From contig NZ_PHHE01000001.1 in assembly GCF_002813455.1 (NCBI RefSeq), forward strand, positions 3,461,001 to 3,525,000: a DNA stretch of 64,000 nt, written 5' to 3'. The notes under the pieces were generated by a model. The model searched no databases and had not been told where the DNA came from. It worked only from the letters and a program-made list of their open reading frames with translations. Position 1 is the stretch's first letter; each line of letters begins with the position of its first letter. The position numbers and the translations under genes were made by a program. This DNA is from Pseudomonas baetica (GTDB lineage: Bacteria; Pseudomonadota; Gammaproteobacteria; Pseudomonadales; Pseudomonadaceae). Below are positions 49,065-60,104 of the stretch, in pieces.

Positions 49065-52022
49065 TCAAAAACTCATTTGCCACTGCCCGATCAACCCGTG
49101 ATTGCGACTGTTGCTGCCGATCTCGCCGCTGTATCCCACACCCAAGGTATGCCGCGCCGAGATCCCCACATCCAGCCCGGCTTCCAGCACCAGGCTGTCG
49201 CGATCCAGCGAACTGCCATCGACACTGAACGCCGTGCCACCGACTACAAACGCCTGACGCGTCGAGCTACTGACATCGCCATAGGTGTGTTTCCACCCGG
49301 CGGCCATGCGTGGCGTTACGCTCATGCCGTTGTCCAGGCTGCTCAGGTGCGCCAGGCGCAGGCCGAAGGTGCTGCTGAAGTTGTCTTGGGTCTGGCTGTC
49401 GACTTGCAGCGCCGCGGCGCCACCTTTTTCCTTGTAGCTGTCGCGGTGGTAGCGGTGATAGCCGAGGCTGGCAAACGGTTCAGCGCTGAGGCGGCCCCTG
49501 CCCATGGCGTAACCGAGTTCGGCGAAGGCTTGCTGGCTGTCAGCGTTGTAGTCGCCTTTGGGGCGATCACTGAAACCGTTGAAAGCGATGGTGCGTTTGC
49601 TTTCACCTTGATGGCCGCTGTAGGCCGCGCCGAGGCGCAGAGAGATCGGGCCGTTCTGATGCAGGGCATAAACGCCGGCGTGCCAGCTCTCGACATTGCC
49701 ATCGACGCCGGTGGTGTCCAGATCGGTTTTCGAATAACCGCCGAGCACGCCCAGACGCCATTGCGGATTCAGCGACCAGTCGGCGCCGAGCACGCTGCCC
49801 TTGGTGCGTTGTTCCAGACCGCTGCTGCCGTGTTCGCCGTCAAGCTTGCCGTAGCCGCCGATGGCTTGCAGCCACAGGCGGCCGCGAGCGTTTGGATCAT
49901 TCAGGTTGCGCGCCTCGGACGGTACGCCGTTGGCCGCCAACACCGGTGTGTCTCGTTGATCGAGGCCGACCATCAGCCCCGGGCTGCCGCTGATCTGCTG
50001 CATCGCCGAAAGCATGCTGCTACCGACCTGGCTGCTGGCACCGAGGGTGGCGCTGGTCAGGTTGGCGTTGCTGGCGCCGGCCAGTTGCTCGATCGCCGCG
50101 CCGGCCGTGCTTTGGGTGGTGTTGAGCAAGGCGTTGTACAGCGCGCTGTTCTTGCCCATTGAGGCCAGGCTGGTGGCGGCGTTGCTGCCGTTGCCGGTGG
50201 CGGCGAACTCATTGAAGGCGACGTCGTTGCGGGTGTAGGTCAGGTCGACTTGAGTCGGCGTGTAGGCCAGCGTCGGGGTGAGAAACGCGTAGTCGCTGGT
50301 GACCTTGCCGAAGGTGCCGTTGACCTGCGCGGCTTGCAGCACGGTGTAATGGCTCTGCCACGGATAAGTGCCGCTGCCGGGATTCACCGCCAGGGTCGCA
50401 CCGTTGAGATTCGCGGTGCCGCCGACCTGCACCGGCGCGCTGCTGCCGTCGGCATTGACGCCGTAGGCGAGGGTGGAAACGCTGTTCATGTTCAAGTCAT
50501 GCACGATCGTCGCTCGGCCCAGACTCGTGTCAGTACGTAATGTGCCGTTGACGTTGAGGCTGCCCACCGATCCGCCCCCGGCATACACACCACCGGCATC
50601 CACGGTGAGGTCGCCGGCGATACCACCCTGGTTGATCAGCGTCGCACCGTTGCGCACGGCGCCGCCGTCACTGAAGTCATCCGTTCCGGTCAACGTCCAC
50701 GCGCCTTGCCTGACCTCCAGCCACTCGAAGTTGCGACTCTGGCCGAAGTTGCCGCCCGCGGCGTCGTCCATCACCACCCGGTCATAGCCGCTGCCACCGT
50801 CGACGGTGCCGACGAAGCGGCTGCCATTGCGCAAAGTCAGGCTGTCATTGCCGCCGCCCAGATCCAGCGCCAGGCCATTGCTGCCGCTGATCGTACCGCC
50901 GTTGATGACGTTGTCGGCGAACTCTCCGACAAGCTTCACGCCGAAACCGTCGAGGCCCTGGATGGTGCCGAAGTTCTCCAGCGTGGTCGCCGCCAGCCCC
51001 GAGCCACCACTGCCGTCGTCCACCAGAATGGCGCTGGTGGCGCCGCTGATCATCGCGCCGCTGGCGTTGAGAATGTAGCCGCCGCCGAGGGCGATGCCCT
51101 CACTGCCATTGGCAAAACCACCCTTGTCGACACCGCCCGCGCCGACGCCTTGGATGGTGCCGTAGTTTTCGATGTGGGCGATCTTGTCGATGTCCACGCC
51201 GTCGCCATCGCCGTTGGCTTGCAACCCCGAGTACGCGCCAGTGATGGTGCCGTGGTTGATCACGGTGCCGTCGCCATCGGAGCCGAAGCCGGAGCCATTG
51301 CGCCCGGTGATCTGCCCGTAGTTGATCAGTGTTGCGCCGAGGTCGGTGGTGATGCCATGGCGGCCGCCGGAAATGACGCCGTAGTTTGTGATCGAAACCC
51401 CCGTCGCCGTATCGATGTCGATACCGTCGTACTTCTGGTCGGCGTTATGCGAGTCACCCGTGGAAATCTCGCCGTAGTTGGTAATCGTCGCGTTGGCGCC
51501 GGTCTTCATGCCGTCGCTGGCGTCGCCGCGAATCAATCCGCCGGCGCGGTTGATGATCGTGGTCTTCACGCCGTCGCTGCGCAGCGCATCCAGATCCAGC
51601 CCTTGGCCGGTGGTCGAGCGGATGATGCCGCTGTTATCGATCAACAGGCTGCCGCTGACGAAGTTGCTGTCGATGCGCAGGGCATCGTTGGCGCCGAGGA
51701 TCTGCCCGCCGCTGCGGTTGTAAATGGCGTAGTTGCGCGCCTGGGTCAGGTCGCCACTGCTGTCGATGGCTCGGCCACCGCTGGAAATGATCTTGCCGGC
51801 GTTATCGATCACCACACCGGCGCCGCTGGTGCCGTCCTTCAGGCTGACGGCCTTGCCACTGTTGGTGATGCTGCCCGGCGCCGAAATCGTCAGCGTGTCG
51901 CTACCGCCAAGGGTTTGCGAAGCGGTGGTGGCGGTGTCGATCTGCACGGTTTTGCCGTGGGCGGCCGTGGTGGCGATCAACAGGGCGATGGCGAGGGACA
52001 GGCGCTGAGGCGGGAAGGGCAT
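49065..52022 (-). CDS. Autotransporter (type Va) with long beta-helix passenger
   Basis: A 985-residue autotransporter. The signal peptide (LSLAIALLIATTAAHG) is followed by a passenger of about 600 residues built of short repeats such as ITNYGEISTG, ITNYGVISGG and LINYGQITGR, a right-handed beta-helix. A beta-barrel domain (from about residue 700; RLWLQAIGGYGKLD) ends in WQMSF. The repeat pattern is typical of adhesin-like or haemagglutinin-like passengers. It is separated by 198 bases from its smaller relative and may be its own transcript. Confidence 0.88.
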   Translation of the reverse strand: MPFPPQRLSLAIALLIATTAAHGKTVQIDTATTASQTLGGSDTLTISAPGSITNSGKAVSLKDGTSGAGVVIDNAGKIISSGGRAIDSSGDLTQARNYAIYNRSGGQILGANDALRIDSNFVSGSLLIDNSGIIRSTTGQGLDLDALRSDGVKTTIINRAGGLIRGDASDGMKTGANATITNYGEISTGDSHNADQKYDGIDIDTATGVSITNYGVISGGRHGITTDLGATLINYGQITGRNGSGFGSDGDGTVINHGTITGAYSGLQANGDGDGVDIDKIAHIENYGTIQGVGAGGVDKGGFANGSEGIALGGGYILNASGAMISGATSAILVDDGSGGSGLAATTLENFGTIQGLDGFGVKLVGEFADNVINGGTISGSNGLALDLGGGNDSLTLRNGSRFVGTVDGGSGYDRVVMDDAAGGNFGQSRNFEWLEVRQGAWTLTGTDDFSDGGAVRNGATLINQGGIAGDLTVDAGGVYAGGGSVGSLNVNGTLRTDTSLGRATIVHDLNMNSVSTLAYGVNADGSSAPVQVGGTANLNGATLAVNPGSGTYPWQSHYTVLQAAQVNGTFGKVTSDYAFLTPTLAYTPTQVDLTYTRNDVAFNEFAATGNGSNAATSLASMGKNSALYNALLNTTQSTAGAAIEQLAGASNANLTSATLGASSQVGSSMLSAMQQISGSPGLMVGLDQRDTPVLAANGVPSEARNLNDPNARGRLWLQAIGGYGKLDGEHGSSGLEQRTKGSVLGADWSLNPQWRLGVLGGYSKTDLDTTGVDGNVESWHAGVYALHQNGPISLRLGAAYSGHQGESKRTIAFNGFSDRPKGDYNADSQQAFAELGYAMGRGRLSAEPFASLGYHRYHRDSYKEKGGAAALQVDSQTQDNFSSTFGLRLAHLSSLDNGMSVTPRMAAGWKHTYGDVSSSTRQAFVVGGTAFSVDGSSLDRDSLVLEAGLDVGISARHTLGVGYSGEIGSNSRNHGLIGQWQMSF

Positions 52023-52106
52023 GGTGGACGGCCTTTTGTTATAAGCGGGCCGTCCTGTATAGCGATGGGTTTTTACAGAATGATGTCTGCGCTGTTGCAG
52101 AACACC

Positions 52107-52943
52107 TTAAGTCCGGCGCTCGTAAGCCTTGCCGTAATGCCGCTCCATCCGCGCCTGAATCAGCTCCAGCCCGATCGACATCACCCAGTAAATGATCGCC
52201 GCGGTCGTGAGCATTTCGATGTAGCGATAGCTTGAGCGGCCATACGACTGCGCCAGAAACATCACTTCCCAAACGCCCATCACCGAGATCAGCGACGAGT
52301 CTTTGAGCATCGAGATGAATTGGTTGGTGGTCGGCGGGATGATCGTGCGCATGGCCTGGGGCAGGGTGATGCGCCAGAAAATCACGCTCTCGCGCATGCC
52401 CAGCGCCAGCGACGCTTCTCGCTGGCCATACGGGACGCCAAGAATACCGGCACGGAAGATCTCGCTGAGATAGGCGCCATAGTTCAGCGACAGCGCGATG
52501 ATCCCGGCAACGATGGCGCCGGGCACGATGCCCAACTGCGGCAGGCCGAGGTAGATCAGCAGGATCTGGATCAGCAGCGGCGTGCCGCGAAAGAACGAGG
52601 CGTAGAAACTGGCGATGCCGAAGGCCACGGCGCTTTTCGACAGTCGCGCCAAAGCCGTCACGAAGCCCAGCAATGACGACGTGACGATCGAGCATACGCA
52701 CAGAAACAACGTCAGCGCCGCACCTTGCAAGAAGCCGTTGGGTGCCAGCTTGAGGCCGACCAGGTTGGGCAGCTTGTCGAGGATGATCGAGAACTTCAGG
52801 TCGAAGCTCAGGAAGAACCCGGCGAACAGGCAGAACATCACTGCCCAGGTCAGGTACAGCCGCGTACGAAAACCGAAGAGCCGGCGCAGACGTGATTCAG
52901 CCACCGGTTGCGGTGGCTGGGGTGGAGTGGGGAAAGAAGTCAT
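52107..52943 (-). CDS. Polar amino-acid ABC transporter permease
   Basis: A 278-residue HisM/GlnP-type permease: about five membrane helices and the EAA loop at YGQREASLALGMRESVIFWRITLPQAMRTIIPP (segment EASLALGM). Its ATG overlaps the stop of the binding-protein gene (ATGA). An N-terminal Pro-rich extension precedes the first helix. No ATPase gene is adjacent, so the transporter must share one from elsewhere. The in-frame stretch upstream of ATG 52943 is within the previous gene and is not used. Confidence 0.88.
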   Translation of the reverse strand: MTSFPTPPQPPQPVAESRLRRLFGFRTRLYLTWAVMFCLFAGFFLSFDLKFSIILDKLPNLVGLKLAPNGFLQGAALTLFLCVCSIVTSSLLGFVTALARLSKSAVAFGIASFYASFFRGTPLLIQILLIYLGLPQLGIVPGAIVAGIIALSLNYGAYLSEIFRAGILGVPYGQREASLALGMRESVIFWRITLPQAMRTIIPPTTNQFISMLKDSSLISVMGVWEVMFLAQSYGRSSYRYIEMLTTAAIIYWVMSIGLELIQARMERHYGKAYERRT

Positions 52944-53761
52944 TGACTGATGTCGGCGCCGATCCATTTCTGCGAGAGCTTGCTCAGGGTGCCGTCCTGC
53001 TTGAGCTGCGCAAATACCTCGCGCACTTTCGCATCCCACTGGGCGTCACCCTTTTCGATGGCCACCGAGTTCGGCTCCGAGTACAGCGCTTCGCCAGCAA
53101 GCTTGAAGCGTTTGTCTTCATTCAGGCGCGGCTGGGCAGTGACGAGGTTGGTGAGGATCGCATCCAGACGCACGCCGGCACCCAGGCCCAAGTCCTGGAA
53201 GGCGACGTTGTCGGTGTCATACGGGGCGATCTGCACCTCCTCGAACGGGTACTGCAACTGCGTGTCTTCCGCGCCTTCGATGACCAGATTCTTGTTCAGA
53301 TAACTTTCGTAGCTGGAGGCGCTGGTGAGGCCGACTTTCTTGCCGCTCAGATCCTTGGCGCTGTGGATGCGATCGTCTTTGGCGTTGACCACGATCACGG
53401 CTGGTGAGGCGTAGTACTCGACCGGGAAATCGAACACTTCGGCGCGGGCCTTGCTCGGCGTCATCGAGCAGATGCAGATGTCATAGCGCCCGCTCCAGCG
53501 GCCGGCGGCGATGACGTCCCAGGACGGTGTTTCGAGACGCAGCTTGACCCCGAGTTTGTCCGCCACGGCTTTGGCGACATCGACGTCGAAGCCGTCGAGC
53601 TGGTTCTGATCGTTGAGAAATGAGAAGGGTGGATAGCTTTCCATCAACACGCCGACCAGCTCTCTTTTTTGCTCGATGCGATCCAGCGTGACGCCACCAA
53701 AGGCTTGGGTGGAGGCGGCCAGAATCGTCAGGCCCAGGGCCAGTAGCGGTTGAAATTTCAC
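52940..53761 (-). CDS. Amino-acid-binding periplasmic protein (family 3)
   Basis: A 273-residue SBP_bac_3 protein with a signal peptide (LLALGLTILAASTQAFGG) and the typical YPPFSFLNDQNQLDGFDVDVAKAVADKLG start of the domain (segment GFDVDVAKAVADKLGV). The start is GTG 53761 with AGGGA upstream. It delivers its ligand to the overlapping permease. The ligand cannot be told; the Asp/Glu/polar amino-acid class is most likely. The divergent homocysteine methyltransferase-like gene hints at a sulfur-containing or methylated amino acid, as inference only. Confidence 0.85.
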   Translation of the reverse strand: MKFQPLLALGLTILAASTQAFGGVTLDRIEQKRELVGVLMESYPPFSFLNDQNQLDGFDVDVAKAVADKLGVKLRLETPSWDVIAAGRWSGRYDICICSMTPSKARAEVFDFPVEYYASPAVIVVNAKDDRIHSAKDLSGKKVGLTSASSYESYLNKNLVIEGAEDTQLQYPFEEVQIAPYDTDNVAFQDLGLGAGVRLDAILTNLVTAQPRLNEDKRFKLAGEALYSEPNSVAIEKGDAQWDAKVREVFAQLKQDGTLSKLSQKWIGADISQ

Positions 53762-53874
53762 AGTCGATCCCTGGTAAAAAAAGAGGTTGTTATTAACCGA
53801 ATGGTGCGTATTAAATAGTTATAAGAACGACTCTGGTAGTGAGTTATTTTCATAAGCTTATGAGTGAAAGGCAT

Positions 53875-54774
53875 ATGGGCGCAGCAAGCACAGTAATTCT
53901 CGATGGCGGCATGGGCCGTGAGTTGCAACGCGCCGGTGCACCATTCCGGCAGCCAGAGTGGTCGGCGCTGGCGCTGAGCGAAGCGCCGCAAGCGGTGGAA
54001 GCGGTACACGCCGCCTACATCGCCAGCGGTGCTAATGTGATCACCAGCAACAGCTACGCGGTGGTGCCATTCCACATCGGCGAAGAGCGTTTCGCCGCTG
54101 AAGGTCAGGCGCTGGCGGCATTGGCCGGTGAACTGGCGCGGCGTGCGGTAGAGGCGTCGGGCAAAGCCGTGCGGGTCGCGGGTTCGTTGCCGCCGTTGTT
54201 CGGCTCCTATCGCCCGGATCTGTTCGAGGCGTCCCGGGTGACCGAATTGCTCAACCCGTTGGTCAAGGGTCTGGCCCCGCACGTTGACCTGTGGCTGGCG
54301 GAAACCCAGAGCTCGATCGTCGAGGCGCGCGTCATCCACGCCGGGCTGCCGCAGGACGGTAAACCGTTCTGGTTGTCGTTTACCTTGAAGGACGAAGACA
54401 CCGACGAAGTGCCGCGCTTGCGCTCCGGCGAGCCGGTGGCCGAAGCCGCTGCGGTGGCCGCCGAGTTGGGCGTCGAGACGCTGCTGTTCAATTGCAGTCA
54501 GCCGGAAGTGATCGGTGCAGCCATTGATGCAGCGCGCGAAACCTTCGAACGTCTGGGGGTGAAGATTCACATCGGCGCGTATGCCAACGCGTTCCCGCCA
54601 CAACCTAAAGAAGCCACGGCCAATGATGGACTCGACCCGTTGCGCGAAGATCTCGATCCGCCGGGTTATCTGCATTGGGCGCGTGATTGGCAGCAGCGCG
54701 GTGCCAGTCACCTGGGCGGTTGCTGCGGGATCGGCCCGGAGCACATTGCGGTGCTGGCGCAGAAACTCGGTTAA
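53875..54774 (+). CDS. Homocysteine S-methyltransferase-family protein
   Basis: A 299-residue TIM-barrel protein of the MmuM/BHMT family, which transfers a methyl group (from S-methylmethionine, betaine or a related donor) to homocysteine or a similar thiol. Zinc ligands are visible: Cys in LLFNCSQPEVI and the pair in LGGCCGIGPEH. The N-terminal ILDGGMGRELQRAGAPF is characteristic. ATG 53875 follows GAAAGG; ATG 53860 is possible but has no ribosome-binding site. It is divergent from the amino-acid ABC pair (113 bases), which may import its substrate. Confidence 0.85.
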   Translation: MGAASTVILDGGMGRELQRAGAPFRQPEWSALALSEAPQAVEAVHAAYIASGANVITSNSYAVVPFHIGEERFAAEGQALAALAGELARRAVEASGKAVRVAGSLPPLFGSYRPDLFEASRVTELLNPLVKGLAPHVDLWLAETQSSIVEARVIHAGLPQDGKPFWLSFTLKDEDTDEVPRLRSGEPVAEAAAVAAELGVETLLFNCSQPEVIGAAIDAARETFERLGVKIHIGAYANAFPPQPKEATANDGLDPLREDLDPPGYLHWARDWQQRGASHLGGCCGIGPEHIAVLAQKLG

Positions 54775-54782
54775 GACAAATC

Positions 54783-54822
54783 AAAAGATCGCAGCCTGCG
54801 GCAGCTCCTACAGGGTGTAGGA
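54783..54822. repeat. REP element (type A)
   Basis: A type A REP core at 54783-54811 with a partial inverted copy at 54816-54822, just after the methyltransferase gene. Confidence 0.75.
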
Positions 54823-54933
54823 GCCATCCCGCATGACGAACGCATTGTGACTCCTTGAGCCTGTGCCTGATCGGCATGTAGGTGAAACAAGACAGATAAA
54901 TCGCCAATTATTCTTGTGCGGTAAACCTCTGTC

Positions 54934-55276
54934 GTCGCTCTTGTTTAAAGCCTGTTGGCTTTACGTCTTGCGACCTACAAAACCTTGCGCCGCTGCCTAC
55001 GCATGCACCAGAATCCGCCGGCTTGTGCGCCTTTGGCTGGCTGCGTAACTTGGTTTGCATCACTGATTTCCAGTGATCGGGCTTAGCGGCCCGGCTAGTC
55101 ACTACGGTTGCACATATCTATCCAGTCAGGCATTCGCCTGCACTTGATGGTGGCTGTGCGCATGGCACCTTCGGGTGCACCGGGTTTTTGGTGACTACCG
55201 GTCCGCTAACTTGCGCACAGCCGCCACCCTTTCGCTTAGCGGTGAAAAGATGGCGGCCTCACAGAGGTTAGTCACC
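54934..55276 (+). promoter_or_regulatory. Structured 5' leader of the DUF6124 gene (putative cis-acting RNA)
   Basis: This 340-base gene-free stretch is dense in complementary segments. Stem-loops: TAAAGCC/GGCTTTA (54946-54963) inside GTCGC/GCGAC, ATCACTG/CAGTGAT (55059-55077), GCACC-TTCG-GGTGC (55165-55178), ACCGG/CCGGT (55179-55202), and CTGTGCGCA/TGCGCACAG with a flanking GGTGG/CCACC (55149-55228). A central segment at 55190-55209 can pair with 55083-55102 (7+4+7 base pairs), or with two pieces further down: TTAGCGG (55236-55242) and TAGTCACC (55269-55276). The last lies between the AGAGG ribosome-binding site and the ATG. The two pairings exclude each other, so the leader could switch translation. 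No function is known to me. Confidence 0.55.
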
Positions 55277-55642
55277 ATGTTCAAACCAACGCCAAACCCA
55301 CCGACGACAGACTCGGCATCCCCCTACGAATCGCCCGATTCAAAGAAATTTCACGAAGCCGCCGAGCGCGCCCTCGACCACTATCTCGGCCCATCGGCGG
55401 CCGACATCATGGCCGCGCCTTACAAACGCAACACGCTGTACATGGCAAGCCCCGAGGCCGACAACGAGTCCTTGCTGGCAGATGCCACTGAGACCCTTGG
55501 CTCGGCCACCGTTATGATCAACAACCATATCGCGCAGGTTGAAGGTACCCACCGCAAAACCCTGCAAGGCATCGCTCAGGTGGTGATGCTGGCAGAGCTG
55601 GCGGTCAATCGGGTGCTGGACAGGTTAGTGCCAACGGAATGA
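55277..55642 (+). CDS. DUF6124-family small protein
   Basis: A 121-residue protein, MFKPTPNPP at the N-terminus, then SPYESPDSKKFHEAAERALDHYL and a C-terminal QVVMLAELAVNRVLD helix. This matches the DUF6124 (formerly DUF3077-like) family, often multi-copy and almost restricted to pseudomonads, without known function. It seems cytoplasmic and mostly helical. ATG 55277 has AGAGG 9 bases upstream. An in-frame extension to 55175 runs through the structured leader and is unlikely to be translated. Confidence 0.7.
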   Translation: MFKPTPNPPTTDSASPYESPDSKKFHEAAERALDHYLGPSAADIMAAPYKRNTLYMASPEADNESLLADATETLGSATVMINNHIAQVEGTHRKTLQGIAQVVMLAELAVNRVLDRLVPTE

Positions 55643-55796
55643 TCAACGCGCTGGCGGCGCATTCGCATGTGCTGCCAGCACATGGGTTGGGAAAGCCGTT
55701 ATGGGTGCTTTTCTGCATTTTGTTGCAGATGTATTCGTGGTGCTCGATTAAATATGCACTATATTGCAGTTATTAATGAAAACCCTTCGCTAAAGT

Positions 55797-55808
55797 GCAT
55801 TTAAATGC
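55797..55808. promoter_or_regulatory. Palindrome before hipA (candidate HipB operator)
   Basis: GCATTTAAATGC is a perfect 12-base palindrome 13 bases before the hipA start. A second dyad, TGCA-CTATAT-TGCA, lies at about 55754-55768. Toxin-antitoxin operons are commonly self-regulated at such sites. Confidence 0.45.
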
Positions 55809-55821
55809 GGGTGCAAAGCGT

Positions 55822-57174
55822 ATGTACGACCTGACATTACAGATATTCGCGGCTGGGCAATGGCATGACGCGATGATTCTGAGTTTCGCTGACCCCGAAA
55901 AGGGTTTCGAAAGTCGCTGCGATTTCGGTTATCAAACCACCTATCTCTTCGATAACTTCGACGAGATAGGGTCGCCGTTCTCAAAAGCTGTGAGTGTACG
56001 GTTCCCATTGGAATGGGATAGCCGGCGATCCGCTGTGCCAGCCTTCATCCATGACATCGTTCCTGCCGGTGCGGCGAAACGTTTTCTTCTTGCTCGCGTG
56101 GGGCAAGAAAAACCCGCAGGCATCAGCGCCGATCTTTATCTGTTGGGTCGAAGTACAGCGGCACCCATCGGCAACATGCGGATAAAGGAGTCTGCCGAAT
56201 CTGTGGATGAGCGAGAGCCCATTGGATTTCAGCGTCAGGACGTGATCCTGCGTGACAACCGGTTTCTCGAGTACGCCTATGAACTGGGTGCCGCCATTGG
56301 CGGTGCGACGGGGGCGGGGGGGGAAGCACCGAAGCTTCTGTTGGCAGAGGACAAGGCGGGCCTCCTGTTCCCCGATGCAGTCCTTGAGGATTCAGAGGTC
56401 AGTCAACACTGGTTTGTGAAGTTTGCCCGCAACAAAGGCAACCAGACCGATCAGGATATCTTGCGAAGTGAGTTCCACTACTACAGAGCCCTTCAGACGT
56501 TAGGCATCGAAACGGTCGCCTCACAGGGGCTGGCACTGGAAGAGGCGACCAAACCCAGCTTGTGGATGCAGCGTTTTGATCGTCGGGTAACCGCTCAAGG
56601 TGTTGAGCGTTACGCAGTCGAATCGATTTATTCGCTGGCTAACGTGACAGCGCCAGGCAGCGCGATGGACCATTTGGACGTGATTCGTATGCTTGCCGGT
56701 CTGTGGCGTGAGGCAGGGCAAGCGGATCAGATTCCTGATCTGGTGGCGGACTACTTGCGTCGGGATCTGATCAACAAAATTCTCGGTAACTCGGATAACC
56801 ATGGCCGCAATACCGCGATTATTCGTGGGGTAAGTTCGTTTCGGCTTGCTCCAATTTATGATTTGGCGCCGATGGTCATGGACGATGAAGGCGTTACCCG
56901 TACGACTAAATGGCCGAAAGCGTTGGAAAGGGCGGGTGATGTCGATTGGCGAGGCGTTTGTCGTGCATTGGCTGATATTGCAGCCCCGGATGATCCCTTG
57001 GCTGCTTTGGCCAACGCGCCTGATTCATTCGAGCGCCTGCGTATGGATGCACAAGGCCTCGCGGCCCTTCCCGATATTTTGACCGAGAGTGGCCTGCCGG
57101 ACCGAACCATGAATCACCCAGGCATCGCATTGAAGAATCTGGAGCAGCGATTGAAAGAGTGGGATCTGAAATGA
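55822..57174 (+). CDS. hipA: HipA-family serine/threonine kinase (toxin-like)
   Basis: A 450-residue HipA-like kinase. The catalytic loop LGNSDNHGRNTAI (Asp near residue 325) and the metal-binding YDLAP (about 347) are intact, as is a Gly-rich ATP loop region GGATGAGGEAPKLLL. The autophosphorylated serine of E. coli HipA has no obvious serine counterpart in that loop; a threonine is present. HipA toxins phosphorylate glutamyl-tRNA synthetase or other targets and induce dormancy. ATG 55822 starts the N-subdomain; a GTG at 55795 lies within the palindromic region. The stop overlaps the antitoxin-like gene by 4 bases; toxin-first order is reversed relative to E. coli hipBA. Confidence 0.8.
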   Translation: MYDLTLQIFAAGQWHDAMILSFADPEKGFESRCDFGYQTTYLFDNFDEIGSPFSKAVSVRFPLEWDSRRSAVPAFIHDIVPAGAAKRFLLARVGQEKPAGISADLYLLGRSTAAPIGNMRIKESAESVDEREPIGFQRQDVILRDNRFLEYAYELGAAIGGATGAGGEAPKLLLAEDKAGLLFPDAVLEDSEVSQHWFVKFARNKGNQTDQDILRSEFHYYRALQTLGIETVASQGLALEEATKPSLWMQRFDRRVTAQGVERYAVESIYSLANVTAPGSAMDHLDVIRMLAGLWREAGQADQIPDLVADYLRRDLINKILGNSDNHGRNTAIIRGVSSFRLAPIYDLAPMVMDDEGVTRTTKWPKALERAGDVDWRGVCRALADIAAPDDPLAALANAPDSFERLRMDAQGLAALPDILTESGLPDRTMNHPGIALKNLEQRLKEWDLK

Positions 57175-57449
57175 GCCTGACCGTTGCCGAACGCACTGTG
57201 CTTATTGAAAACATACGGGAAGCGCTGGCACAGGGAACGCTTGAGATCGGCGAAGCCGTTCGCCGCTTACGTGTAGAAGTGACGGGGTTGCATCAAACCC
57301 AGTTCGCGAAAATGTGCAAGATCTCGGTGCGTACCCTGGTGCACATCGAACACGGTGAGGGTAATCAGACGCTGAAGTCGCTGAACGCCGTGTTTCGTCC
57401 GTTTGGGATGAAGATGGGCGTTGTGCGGATTCGACGAGATATCAGTTAA
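57171..57449 (+). CDS. HipB-like helix-turn-helix antitoxin
   Basis: A 92-residue Xre/HipB-type DNA-binding protein: LRVEVTGLHQTQFAKMCKISVRTLVHIEHGEGN holds the helix-turn-helix (HQTQFAKMCKISVRTLVHIE), followed by TLKSLNAVFRPFGMKMGVV. It overlaps hipA in an ATGA arrangement, so it is made from the same message. It presumably neutralises HipA and represses the operon. It is cut from its natural downstream region by a REP and an IS. Confidence 0.78.
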   Translation: MSLTVAERTVLIENIREALAQGTLEIGEAVRRLRVEVTGLHQTQFAKMCKISVRTLVHIEHGEGNQTLKSLNAVFRPFGMKMGVVRIRRDIS

Positions 57450-57452
57450 AGA

Positions 57453-57482
57453 TCAAAAGATCGCAGCCTGCGGCAGCTCCTA
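57453..57482. repeat. REP half flanking the IS on the left
   Basis: A type A REP unit (GATCAAAAGATCGCAGCC, then GGCAGCTCCTA) that ends exactly where the insertion sequence begins. Its inverted partner lies beyond the IS at 58931. Confidence 0.8.
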
Positions 57483-57499
57483 TGTATGGACTCGCCCCC

Positions 57500-57750
57500 A
57501 CTGTCTACCCGTTTTTTGAAAACTGTCGCCCCGTTGCATCTATGTATTAGGCCTATTCGTGGAAGCCGTCTTCGGCCTCTGGCCAAAATTGGAAGAGCTC
57601 GTGGCATGCCGATTACAGTCAGGCCTCGAAGGCCAGTAGGAGCTTAGGCATCAATCCACGCCGGTCTTACCTGGGGTCAATTTTTTTCAGCAAAGGGTCG
57701 GACAGTCAGTACCTCGGTGGCAGAACTCGGTCGCTCAGTGGCTTATCGTC
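57500..57750 (-). ncRNA. Candidate bridge RNA of the IS110-family element
   Basis: The non-coding region downstream of the transposase has several GGCC-capped hairpins (for example near 57622-57634) and two matches to the element junctions. GTAGGAGCT at 57636-57644 equals the right-flank REP at 58933-58941. CTATGTAT at 57540-57547 equals the left junction at 57480-57487. This is what the target- and donor-binding loops of a bridge RNA would contain. No promoter or ends were defined. Confidence 0.4.
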
Positions 57751-57752
57751 GC

Positions 57753-58838
57753 TTACTGACCATTACCAGCATGACGACGATAAGACTGGTCATTCTGTAG
57801 AAGCACCCAGACGATTCGTAGGTTGCGGTTGGCTAACCTGATCGCAGCCTCCTTACGGCCCAGTCGGCTCATCCACCGCAACAAGCGGCGGTCATCGGGT
57901 TGCAGGGAATCAGGTCGCAGTTGTTGCAGGACCGAATGGGCTCCCTGGATCATCAAGCTGCGTAAATAAACATCACCTCGCTTGGTCATGTCGCCCAGCC
58001 GGACCGTCTGCCCGCTGCTGTGCTGGTCAGGCACCATGCCAAAGTACGCGGCAAACTTGCGGGCATTGGGAAACCGCTCAGGGTTGGTTTCCTTGGCCAC
58101 CAGTGCCGTGGCAATGACTGGGCCAATGCCGCGCACGGTCATCAGTCGCCTCGCTGTCATGTCGGCGTTAGCGGCCACTTCCAGGCGGCCCGTCAACACG
58201 CCGATGCGCTCGCCCAAATGGCGCCACTCAGCCAACAGTTCGTCGATCAATTCACGCAGCAGGCCAGGCAGTGGCTGGGTCGCATCTTCCAGTACCCGCG
58301 GAATCTTCTGACTGATCGCAACATCGCCCTGCGCCAAGGCCACGCCGTGCTCGAGCAGCAGGCCGCGCATCTGATTGCTGACCGCCGTGCGTCGACGCAC
58401 ATAGCCCTGACGGGCGCGATGCAGCGCTTGCATTGCCAGCGCAGCAACGCTTTTGACCGGTACCGCGCAGATTTTTTCATCGCGACCAGCGCGCAGAATC
58501 GCCAGCGCATCGTTGCGATCATTTTTAGGCCCACTGCGGTGTGTGGTCACCAAACCGGCTGGAAGAATCCGCGCCAGATTACCTTTGTCTTGCAACTGCC
58601 GGGCCCAGGCTTGAGCTCCCGGACCGGTCTCCATCAAAACCACGACATGAGGCGGCAGCTGTTGGAGAAACTCATAAAACGCCTCACGCGACTTGATCCG
58701 CTGTTCATAGCGCACCTGGCCGAGGACATCTTCACCAGCGACCTGAAAGACCTGTTTGGCCAGATCTACCGCCAAAGTTGTGCAGGCCGACAAATCGGAA
58801 GAAGACAGGGATTGATCATTCGAACTATGATTTTTCAT
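57753..58838 (-). CDS. IS110-family transposase (DEDD recombinase)
   Basis: A 361-residue transposase. The N-terminal RuvC-like DEDD catalytic residues are visible: D25 (VDLAKQVF), E70 (METGPGAQ), D107/D110 (NDRNDAL). The C-terminal Transposase_20 domain carries RGIGPVIATAL and HSSGQTVRLGDMTKRGD with the candidate nucleophilic serine. The frame is intact, so the element may be active. It starts at ATG 58838, right at a copy of the subterminal 12-mer. Confidence 0.93.
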   Translation of the reverse strand: MKNHSSNDQSLSSSDLSACTTLAVDLAKQVFQVAGEDVLGQVRYEQRIKSREAFYEFLQQLPPHVVVLMETGPGAQAWARQLQDKGNLARILPAGLVTTHRSGPKNDRNDALAILRAGRDEKICAVPVKSVAALAMQALHRARQGYVRRRTAVSNQMRGLLLEHGVALAQGDVAISQKIPRVLEDATQPLPGLLRELIDELLAEWRHLGERIGVLTGRLEVAANADMTARRLMTVRGIGPVIATALVAKETNPERFPNARKFAAYFGMVPDQHSSGQTVRLGDMTKRGDVYLRSLMIQGAHSVLQQLRPDSLQPDDRRLLRWMSRLGRKEAAIRLANRNLRIVWVLLQNDQSYRRHAGNGQ

Positions 58839-58930
58839 GGACTCGCCCTCGCTGTCGATGGCTGTTTAGACTGCCACCGTGGCGCATTGACGCCTCGGCT
58901 TGGGCGAGTCCATCCAATTACACAAAGCGA

Positions 58931-58965
58931 ATGTAGGAGCTGCCGAAGGCTGCGATCTTTTGCTT
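58931..58965. repeat. REP half flanking the IS on the right
   Basis: GTAGGAGCTGCCGAAGGC followed by TGCGATCTTTTGC, the inverted partner of the REP at 57453. Confidence 0.8.
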
Positions 58966-58973
58966 TTAAAAGG

Positions 58974-59645
58974 TTAAGTACGGCACTCGACCAACCCCTT
59001 CACCTGCCCATCAGGCGTCTGGTTTTCATCCGACAGCCACCGCTCAAACCCCGCCGCAATCGTCGGCCACTCACCATCCAGAATCGAGTACCACGCGGTA
59101 TCGCGGTTCTGGCCCTTGACCACCATGTGCTGGCGGAACACGCCTTCAAAACTGAAGCCCAAGCGTTCGGCTGCGTACTTGGAGCGGGCGTTGCCGTTGT
59201 TGCACTTCCATTCGAGGCGACGGTAGCCGAGCTCAAATGAATACTTCGCCAGCAGATAAACCGCCTCGGTGCTTTTCGGCGAACGCTGCATGGGCGCGCC
59301 GAAGGTGACGTGGCCGATTTCGATGCGGCCCTGCGCCGGGACAATCGACATCAGGCTGAGGATGCCTTGCACCTGGCCGCTGGCGCGGTCAATGACGCTG
59401 AAGAAATACGGGTCGCTGCTGGCCGCGTGATTGTTCAGCCAGGCATTGAACACGCTGCGTTCCGGGAACGGGCCGTAGGGCAAGTAATCCCAGAGTTTCG
59501 GGTCGGCGCCGGGGCCTTCGAGGGCGTTGAACAGGTCGTCGCCATGGCGCGCCGGGTCGAGCCTTTCCAGGCGGATGAAGCGACCTTCAAGCAGTTGGGT
59601 GGTGGGGGCAGGGACGCCTTTCCAGTCGGCAAGTGAAGCAGTCAT
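58974..59645 (-). CDS. GNAT N-acetyltransferase (RimJ/RimL type)
   Basis: A 223-residue GNAT-family acetyltransferase of the Acetyltransf_3 type. Segments GRFIRLERLDPARHGDDLF, GRIEIGHVTFGAPMQRSPKSTEA and RRLEWKCNNGNARSKYAAERLGFSFEG (acetyl-CoA-binding part, SKYAAERLGFSFEG) are typical. The substrate is unknown; close relatives acetylate protein N-termini or small amines. The upstream GNAT gene ends 12 bases before it, and the three genes 60738-58974 read as one operon. Confidence 0.85.
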   Translation of the reverse strand: MTASLADWKGVPAPTTQLLEGRFIRLERLDPARHGDDLFNALEGPGADPKLWDYLPYGPFPERSVFNAWLNNHAASSDPYFFSVIDRASGQVQGILSLMSIVPAQGRIEIGHVTFGAPMQRSPKSTEAVYLLAKYSFELGYRRLEWKCNNGNARSKYAAERLGFSFEGVFRQHMVVKGQNRDTAWYSILDGEWPTIAAGFERWLSDENQTPDGQVKGLVECRT

Positions 59646-59657
59646 GAGCGTCTCTCC

Positions 59658-60104
59658 TTAAAGGGCTTTGCGAAACTGGATGAACCCCGGGCGCTCGGCG
59701 ATGCGCTCGTAGAGCTGGATGGCGGTGGCGTTGGTTTCGTGGGTCAGCCAATGGACTTTGCAGCAACCATCGGCCTTGGCCGTGGCGTAGACGTGTTCGA
59801 TCAGCAGGCGACCGACGCCAGTGCCGCGAGTGTGTTCCTCGACCACCAAATCTTGCAGGTAGCAGGAGTTTTCGATGCTCCAGTTCGAGCGATGGTAGAT
59901 GTAATGCACCATGCCCACCGCTTTGCCATCCGCCCAGGCGAGCGCGGCGTGAGTCGGCTCGCCTGGGTCGAGGAAACGCTGCCAGGTACTGTTCGTCACC
60001 GCCTCCGGCAGTTCGGTGTTGTAGAAGCGCAGGTACGCTTGCCACAGCGGCAGCCAGGCGGCGTGGTCGTCGGCGTTGACCTGACGGATCTCGATCTGAC
60101 TCAT
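59658..60104 (-). CDS. GNAT N-acetyltransferase
   Basis: A 148-residue GNAT protein with the acetyl-CoA loop RGTGVGRLLIEHVYATAK and IQLYERIAERPGFIQF at the C-terminus. It resembles diamine/amino-acid acetyltransferase-like members (LQDLVVEEHTRGTG). The length is normal. It sits in the middle of a three-gene minus-strand operon with PaiB upstream, recalling PaiA-PaiB, where the acetyltransferase partner acts on polyamines; that is inference. Confidence 0.85.
   Translation of the reverse strand: MSQIEIRQVNADDHAAWLPLWQAYLRFYNTELPEAVTNSTWQRFLDPGEPTHAALAWADGKAVGMVHYIYHRSNWSIENSCYLQDLVVEEHTRGTGVGRLLIEHVYATAKADGCCKVHWLTHETNATAIQLYERIAERPGFIQFRKAL

Follow-up and report, generated by a model that had tools for sequence, protein, structure and literature searches.

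The leader of a DUF6124 gene in Pseudomonas baetica is a C4 antisense RNA, a member of an already known family and not a new sensor. It is very probable that this RNA belongs to a unit that silences its own downstream gene, the DUF6124 gene. C4 is chiefly known as the immunity RNA of phages P1 and P7; it is the setting here that appears to be new, as the P. baetica genome harbors 36 C4 units, each in front of a small open reading frame (ORF). Positions are those of the window, that is, the whole stretch of 64,000 nucleotides (nt) that was analyzed, unless another sequence is named.

The C4 RNA in the leader and its pairings

The Rfam covariance model of C4 (RF01695) matched the leader over its full length (model positions 1-87 of 87), with a score of 74.3 bits against a cut-off of 45 and an E value of 1.8e-13. 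The c4-a1b1 model (RF03163) scored 24.1 bits at 55046-55097, below its cut-off of 46.7; the a1 and b1 complements are present nonetheless. Both C4 motifs were recorded in Proteobacteria and phages by a 2010 survey (PMC2864571). The features of the window are as follows.

54778-58966, no strand: islet of ~4.2 kb between inverted 35-nt REP-like repeats (54778-54812 and 58932-58966)
55023-55051, + strand: putative promoter, TTGTGC (55023-55028), 17 nt, TAACTT (55046-55051); weak, read from sequence
55060-55076, + strand: leader hairpin TCACTG/CAGTGA, first stem of c4-a1b1; from the RF03163 alignment in Rfam
55083-55089, + strand: a1 target site TTAGCGG, complement of a', in the loop of CGGG/CCCG (55078-55093)
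55096-55102, + strand: b1 target site TAGTCAC, complement of b'
55143-55231, + strand: C4 antisense RNA, RF01695, full length
about 55149-55228, + strand: expected mature C4 RNA with GG at its 5' end; ends placed after the C4 RNAs of phage P1 and A. baumannii as described in PMC5320573
55149-55162 (5' strand) and 55212-55228 (3' strand), + strand: P1 stem; Rfam alignment and covariation in 36 paralogues
55165-55178, + strand: P2 hairpin GCACC-TTCG-GGTGC; Rfam alignment and covariation
55180-55201, + strand: P3 hairpin CCGG/CCGG, with b' in its loop; Rfam alignment
55189-55197, + strand: b' recognition segment TGGTGACTA, in the P3 loop
55203-55209, + strand: a' recognition segment CCGCTAA, single-stranded; from the sequence and pairing scores
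55236-55242, + strand: a2 target site TTAGCGG, complement of a'
55263-55267, + strand: likely ribosome-binding site AGAGG, read from sequence
55269-55277, + strand: b2 target site TAGTCACCA, extending to the A of the start codon
55277-55642, + strand: DUF6124 protein gene, 121 amino acids; PF19619, 57.9 bits against a cut-off of 27

A first-pass annotation, made from the sequence alone, had described this leader as a translational switch or pseudoknotted sensor, and the segments it named lie where it placed them. Its central segment (55190-55209, plus the preceding base) is b' and a' of C4, with complements TTAGCGG at 55083-55089 and 55236-55242 and TAGTCAC at 55096-55102; its 9-base stem CTGTGCGCA/TGCGCACAG is the core of the longer P1 stem (55149-55162/55212-55228); its perfect hairpin at 55165-55178 is P2; and TAGTCACC at 55269-55276, immediately 5' of the ATG at 55277, is b2. 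The pairings are mutually exclusive, as it had proposed, and one of them masks the stretch from the ribosome-binding site to the ATG. Thus, the exclusive and conserved pairings of the proposed switch stand, but the riboswitch-like or pseudoknotted sensor does not: an Rfam search of positions 50000-60000 returned no riboswitch among its 4 matches to an E value of 1, and, given the full-length C4 match, this identity was dropped. Matches to mir-1260b and EAV_LTH near the window scored far under cut-off and were taken as chance.

Complements of both recognition segments on both sides, in the same order, are not easily produced by composition. Among 20,000 dinucleotide shuffles of 55060-55300, none reproduced the double complement with 7-mers and 5 did so with 6-mers. 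In the window, a' and b' match the sites of the start region over 7 and 9 base pairs, respectively, and the computed duplex between the a'/b' stretch and 55230-55300 has an energy of -26.4 kcal/mol. The leader fold has a z score of -4.6, with no equally stable fold in 200 shuffles, and folds constrained to the two alternative pairings reach -103.4 and -100.9 kcal/mol (unconstrained minimum, -104.6).

The stems also vary in a concerted manner. Over the 36 paralogues, 13 of 20 pairs predicted by RNAalifold showed changes on both sides, so the C4 fold itself is conserved, as would be expected of a free-standing RNA. P3 is seen in the Rfam alignment and was not recovered by RNAalifold on the paralogues. 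The GG that opens the P1 stem is invariant in all 36 C4s of the genome, consistent with release by RNase P. According to the account of phage P1 in PMC5320573, RNase P cuts C4 at the 5' end of the P1 stem to give an RNA of ~77 nt, the b' loop covers ribosome-binding sites, a' confers specificity, and experiments point to pairing in trans by RNA excised from the transcript.

Taking transcription, cutting, action in trans and repression by analogy from phage P1 and A. baumannii, we propose that one transcript would start from a promoter near 55023-55051 and carry a1/b1, C4, a2/b2 and the ORF in this order. RNase P would cut at the GG opening the P1 stem and release a C4 RNA of ~80 nt with a' and b' exposed, which would pair in trans with a2/b2 of DUF6124 mRNAs; b' would then block translation by masking the nucleotides that separate the ribosome-binding site from the start codon. 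We infer that, before the cut, a1/b1 would pair with a'/b' in the same transcript and keep C4 inactive; the computed stability of this fold is close to that of the C4 fold, so C4 may stay hidden in the uncut transcript. After the cut, the a1/b1 fragment could serve as a decoy. The putative promoter at 55023-55051 sits in a stretch common to many paralogues, and an RNA started from it would begin just 5' of the first hairpin, whose stem was matched by a regular expression in 31 of the 36 loci of the genome. A consensus promoter scan found no promoter at 55023-55051.

The same pairings could be explained by a purely cis-acting switch in which a1/b1 competes with a2/b2 for pairing to the central segment and a signal (temperature, a ligand, the ribosome or RNA polymerase pausing) decides the outcome, with no trans-acting RNA. 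The closeness of the two constrained folds and the conservation of both target copies fit such a switch, yet it would find P1 and P2 superfluous, and these stems are conserved with covariation. Moreover, no riboswitch family matched, and PMC5320573 describes processing of the antisense RNA in phage P1 and, as judged from RNA-seq coverage, also in A. baumannii. We therefore regard a cis-acting switch as unlikely and favor the antisense unit.

Pairing codes of the 36 units in one genome

In the P. baetica genome, the search returned 36 C4 matches that all passed the cut-off; of 33 DUF6124 matches, 32 passed theirs. When same-strand DUF6124 genes up to 1 kb downstream were counted, the gene after C4 was DUF6124 in 27 of the 36 units, DUF3077 in 5, Bro-N/Ant-like in 1, and a gene without a Pfam family in 3. 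Two further DUF6124 genes lie directly behind a C4-linked DUF6124 gene. DUF6124 genes L057-L060 had no C4 match in the stretches examined; L057 and L060 have a sub-threshold c4-a1b1 match, and a PrrF RNA match (158.4 bits) lies near L058 (around 1243235 of the genome), a DUF6124 gene without C4.

The spacing is regular, with the script-called ORF start 44-56 nt past C4 in 30 of 36 units. In the remaining six, an ATG lies 47-53 nt past C4, in the called frame (L033, L040, L053 and L054) or in another frame (L025 and L032). L025 and L032 (3075525 and 6268716 of the genome) are both DUF3077 loci, and the start at the usual distance opens a different frame, which lies ahead of the DUF3077 frame or overlaps it; this may reflect a frameshift or translational coupling. 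At L041 (4329672-4329761 of the genome), C4 precedes a Bro-N/anti-repressor (Ant) protein, the N terminus of which looks by eye like the beginning of DUF6124 proteins; this may link the unit to the ant arrangement of phage P1.

A C4 pairs far better with the sites downstream of it than with the downstream sites of its siblings. To compare loci, we scored the unbroken run of pairs (Watson-Crick, 1; G-U, 0.3) and sought b2 in a 48-nt window over the ribosome-binding site and start. Over the 36 loci, self versus cross comparisons gave permutation z values of -13.6 for a':a2 and -15.6 for b':b2, and, against the upstream region, of -9.1 for a' and -8.7 for b'; deliberately mismatched combinations used as controls gave +0.9 (a':b2) and +0.7 (b':a2). 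The own site ranked first in 21/36 (a':a2) and 20/36 (b':b2) loci when the recognition segments alone were used. These were adopted because duplex energies of the full a'/b' segments take in the CCGG stems common to the loci and discriminated modestly (own target first in 12/36 downstream and 17/36 upstream).

At a cut of 5.9, own matches were found for a1 in 35/36 loci, a2 in 35/36, b2 in 36/36 and b1 in 26/36; b1 fell under 5.9 in 10/36, and in 3 of the 26 passing loci its best match lay on the wrong side of a1. Scores of at least 6 at a2 together with at least 7 at b2 occurred in 35/36 self combinations, the exception being L055 (at a2), and in 15 of 1,260 ordered cross pairs, so a few units may cross-talk. 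The same cuts upstream (at least 6 for a1 and 7 for b1) were reached by 17/36 self and 21/1,260 cross combinations. All 36 b' loops are distinct, and some a' strings are common to several loci (27 matched strings).

These cross pairs bear on another explanation, namely, that the C4 RNAs have been retargeted and act mainly on other genes in trans, the match to the adjacent gene being secondary. Such a role is suggested for the group 1 small RNAs (sRNAs) of A. baumannii in the account of PMC5320573, and 15 of the 1,260 cross pairs would permit it; own-locus matches, however, dominate, and we consider retargeting highly improbable compared with silencing of the adjacent gene, although single C4s may have additional targets.

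The same relations hold beyond this genome. Adding C4s from 80 loci of other Pseudomonas contigs (see below) to the 36 gave 116, which, minus 19 duplicates, left 97 distinct C4s. At a cut of 6, these matched their own a1 in 96 cases, a2 in 96, b2 in 89 and b1 in 69, compared with 23-34% of cross pairs, and self versus cross z values ranged from 18 to 29, with controls at about -2.

Distribution, sites and exchange of codes

We detected C4, frequently at high copy number, in 138 of 149 Pseudomonas genomes (counts are lower bounds, from up to 27 candidates per genome under strict filters, which gave 26 for the window's genome versus the 36 above). A draw of Gammaproteobacteria yielded C4 in 17 of 273 genomes besides the window's, with 1-6 copies among up to 15 scored. 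DUF6124 was found in 120/149 Pseudomonas genomes and in 0/273 other genomes of the class. Within Pseudomonas, DUF6124 occurred in 120 of the 138 genomes with C4 (absent in 18) and in 0 of the 11 without a C4 match.

A search of genome contigs gave 512 DUF6124 relatives, of which we kept the best 80, from other Pseudomonas; because they derive from one query, they do not sample the family at random. Every one of the 80 has a C4, located 44-56 nt upstream in 77 and 514-607 nt upstream in L159, L165 and L178. L159 belongs to a DUF6124 tandem, in which it is the second gene; in this tandem and in that of L182, C4 lies directly upstream of the first gene only, and the second gene has an apparent ribosome-binding site of its own.

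Among 56 DUF6124 loci on viral contigs, the covariance model placed C4 directly upstream in 46 and at 524-547 nt in 8 (superseding a crude regular expression that gave 43/56), with no C4 match in L197 or in L216, which has 9 nt of upstream sequence. A tblastn search of phages and plasmids matched a single phage record (EU982300, 40.8% identity); plasmids gave no match. Single IMG/VR contigs (those with the locus pairs L196/L198, L203/L221, L205/L207, L210/L226 and L220/L229) each carry two DUF6124 genes on opposite strands, about 17-18 kb apart, an arrangement suggestive of genes bordering a prophage or tailocin block. Weaker C4-like RNAs were seen at a greater distance upstream of DUF6124, at L221:2344-2435, L199:2339-2430, and L159:1700-1785 and 1799-1878. 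We saw no matching ORF for the weaker RNAs of these three loci, and in L221 and the first of L159 a T run follows the P1 stem, like a free sRNA with its own terminator.

To follow codes at fixed positions, we defined sites by shared flanks on both sides, which placed 75 of the 80 loci (omitting L138, L158, L159, L165 and L178) at 26 sites. The three largest sites hold 18, 17 and 9 loci with 4, 6 and 5 b' loop classes. There were 64 same-site pairs with ORFs at least 90% identical and different codes, which, being drawn from 36 loci, are not independent. Upstream of C4, these pairs had mean identities of 0.93 (promoter region), 0.97 (first hairpin), 0.68 (a1/b1) and 0.62 (spacer). Within C4, the means were 0.86 for P1/P2, 0.57 for the b' loop and 0.87 for a'; beyond it, they were 0.75 for a2, 0.55 for the stretch between a2 and the start codon, 0.90 for the first 60 nt of the ORF, 0.93 for the remainder of the ORF and 0.74 for the downstream flank. 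The 35 same-code pairs had identities of at least 0.93 in every cassette part and 0.70 in the flank. L163 and L167 illustrate the pattern: their ORFs share 98% identity over 345 nt, and their codes differ. In these alignments, the antisense block changes as a unit between a conserved promoter and ORF, and the simplest route would be recombination between paralogues, with their common promoter and ORF start.

Most replaced codes still match: of the 36 loci in the different-code pairs, 28 matched themselves at both a2 and b2, compared with 24 of 128 swapped combinations; in the 8 failing loci, b':b2 scored 5.0-5.3 (under 6). At the window's own site, genome G036 carries this cassette with a different set of b1, b' and b2, which again match each other. 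The complementary segments are therefore conserved ahead of other DUF6124 genes, in the loci of this genome and in the 97 distinct C4s, and substitutions in them are compensating, including those at the same site in G036. The first-pass annotation had named loss of conservation, or substitutions breaking both pairings, as grounds for rejecting its reading, and neither was observed.

In the window, the cassette shares its islet with a HipA-like kinase gene, the HTH gene that follows it and a gene for an IS110-family transposase, and the inverted 35-nt repeats at the islet ends are what we take to be REP elements. The upstream homocysteine S-methyltransferase gene is common to 28 of 59 genomes searched; up to 1.5 kb beyond it, C4 occurred among these 28 only in the window's genome and in G036. 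Comparison of 17 loci (10 weaker ones omitted) showed that 13 lack the islet and pass within about 220 nt of the methyltransferase gene to sequence matching 58.9-60 kb of the window; G036 has the cassette, and 3 have no match on that side. The cassette is thus not fixed in place, as judged from these alignments. In G036 (L349, about positions 279-280), the islet lacks about 940 bp of hipA, the match jumping from 56063 to 57005 of the window.

Viewed together, the viral loci and the chromosomal copies allow a further reading, that of C4 units left by prophages and now drifting as decaying remnants. In favor of this reading, C4 is known from phages P1 and P7, and 46 of the 56 viral-contig DUF6124 loci have it directly upstream. 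Drift would break the pairings, yet a2 and b2 are kept together in 35 of the 36 units of the genome, replaced codes still match in 28 of 36 loci, and 138 of the 149 Pseudomonas genomes carry C4, frequently with many copies each. Decay after phage loss is thus very unlikely, and maintained silencing units remain our preferred reading.

The protein itself gave few clues. The AlphaFold2 model of DUF6124 (mean pLDDT, 75.5; pTM, 0.50) predicts a C-terminal helical hairpin (helices 63-85 and 91-117). Foldseek returned nothing at an E value of 0.001 or less for this model (best viral match, 0.36; best PDB match, 1.1), and sequence searches gave no PDB match to an E value of 1 and no PHROG or PADLOC match to 0.1. 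Profile comparisons gave probabilities of 0.5% for DUF6124 versus DUF3077 and 0.2% for DUF3077 versus the unnamed C4-linked proteins; as the profiles are shallow, these values are no proof against common ancestry. A search of 5.39 million open-access papers gave no mention of DUF6124 and one paper that names DUF3077, on furfural tolerance in P. putida. Judged by titles and the openings of abstracts, we found no report of C4 units with these genes in that literature, most subscription papers lying outside the search.

Meaning and comparison with known C4 systems

The link to C4 offers a first handle on the Pseudomonas family DUF6124. More broadly, 36 paralogous units with natural alleles would permit direct tests of antisense RNA specificity and of the origin of new specificities where three sites change together. 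We speculate, tentatively and with some doubt, that these units are genus-wide self-silencing cassettes whose codes are under diversifying selection, forming an RNA identity system like the heteroimmunity of phages P1 and P7. If so, a genome would hold up to dozens of cassettes, each with a code shared by three places in its leader, and exchange of the whole block (a1/b1, C4 and a2/b2) would make alleles of one site largely blind to each other. An incoming cassette without a resident code would be expressed until its own C4 built up, and one with a resident code would be silenced; expression of DUF6124 on entry or on loss of C4 would then matter, whether for addiction, exclusion or defence.

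The unit shares with the C4 of phages P1 and P7 (RF01695; immI) the P1 and P2 stems and, in the Rfam alignment, P3, the a' and b' segments, the GG at the 5' end of the P1 stem, and a2/b2 targets around the start of the next gene. With c4-a1b1 (RF03163) it shares the upstream hairpin, the CGGG-loop-CCCG element with a1, and then b1, although it scores below the cut-off of that model. The target differs, being icd/ant in the phages and DUF6124 in the window; the immI order c4-icd-ant, an operon treated in PMC8198154, is absent, as DUF6124 is followed by HipA and an HTH protein, and the neighboring genes read in the window include no phage structural or replication genes. In other Gammaproteobacteria, C4 lies about 50 nt before an ORF, as in the window; that ORF is antirepressor-like by eye in 4 of 21 loci (L379, L382, L396 and L397), whereas the window's ORF encodes a small protein predicted to be mostly helical.

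A chromosomal parallel is provided by the group 1 sRNAs of A. baumannii AB5075, which, as described in PMC5320573, likewise comprise many chromosomal C4 copies (21 similar sequences) with a variable a' loop and apparent processing from longer transcripts. The Pseudomonas C4s directly precede their matching gene, whereas the description of the group 1 sRNAs in PMC5320573 gives no targets. Between P1 and P7, specificity is set by small target differences, according to the same account. In P. baetica, 36 copies occur in one genome, and the codes vary both among copies and among alleles of one site.
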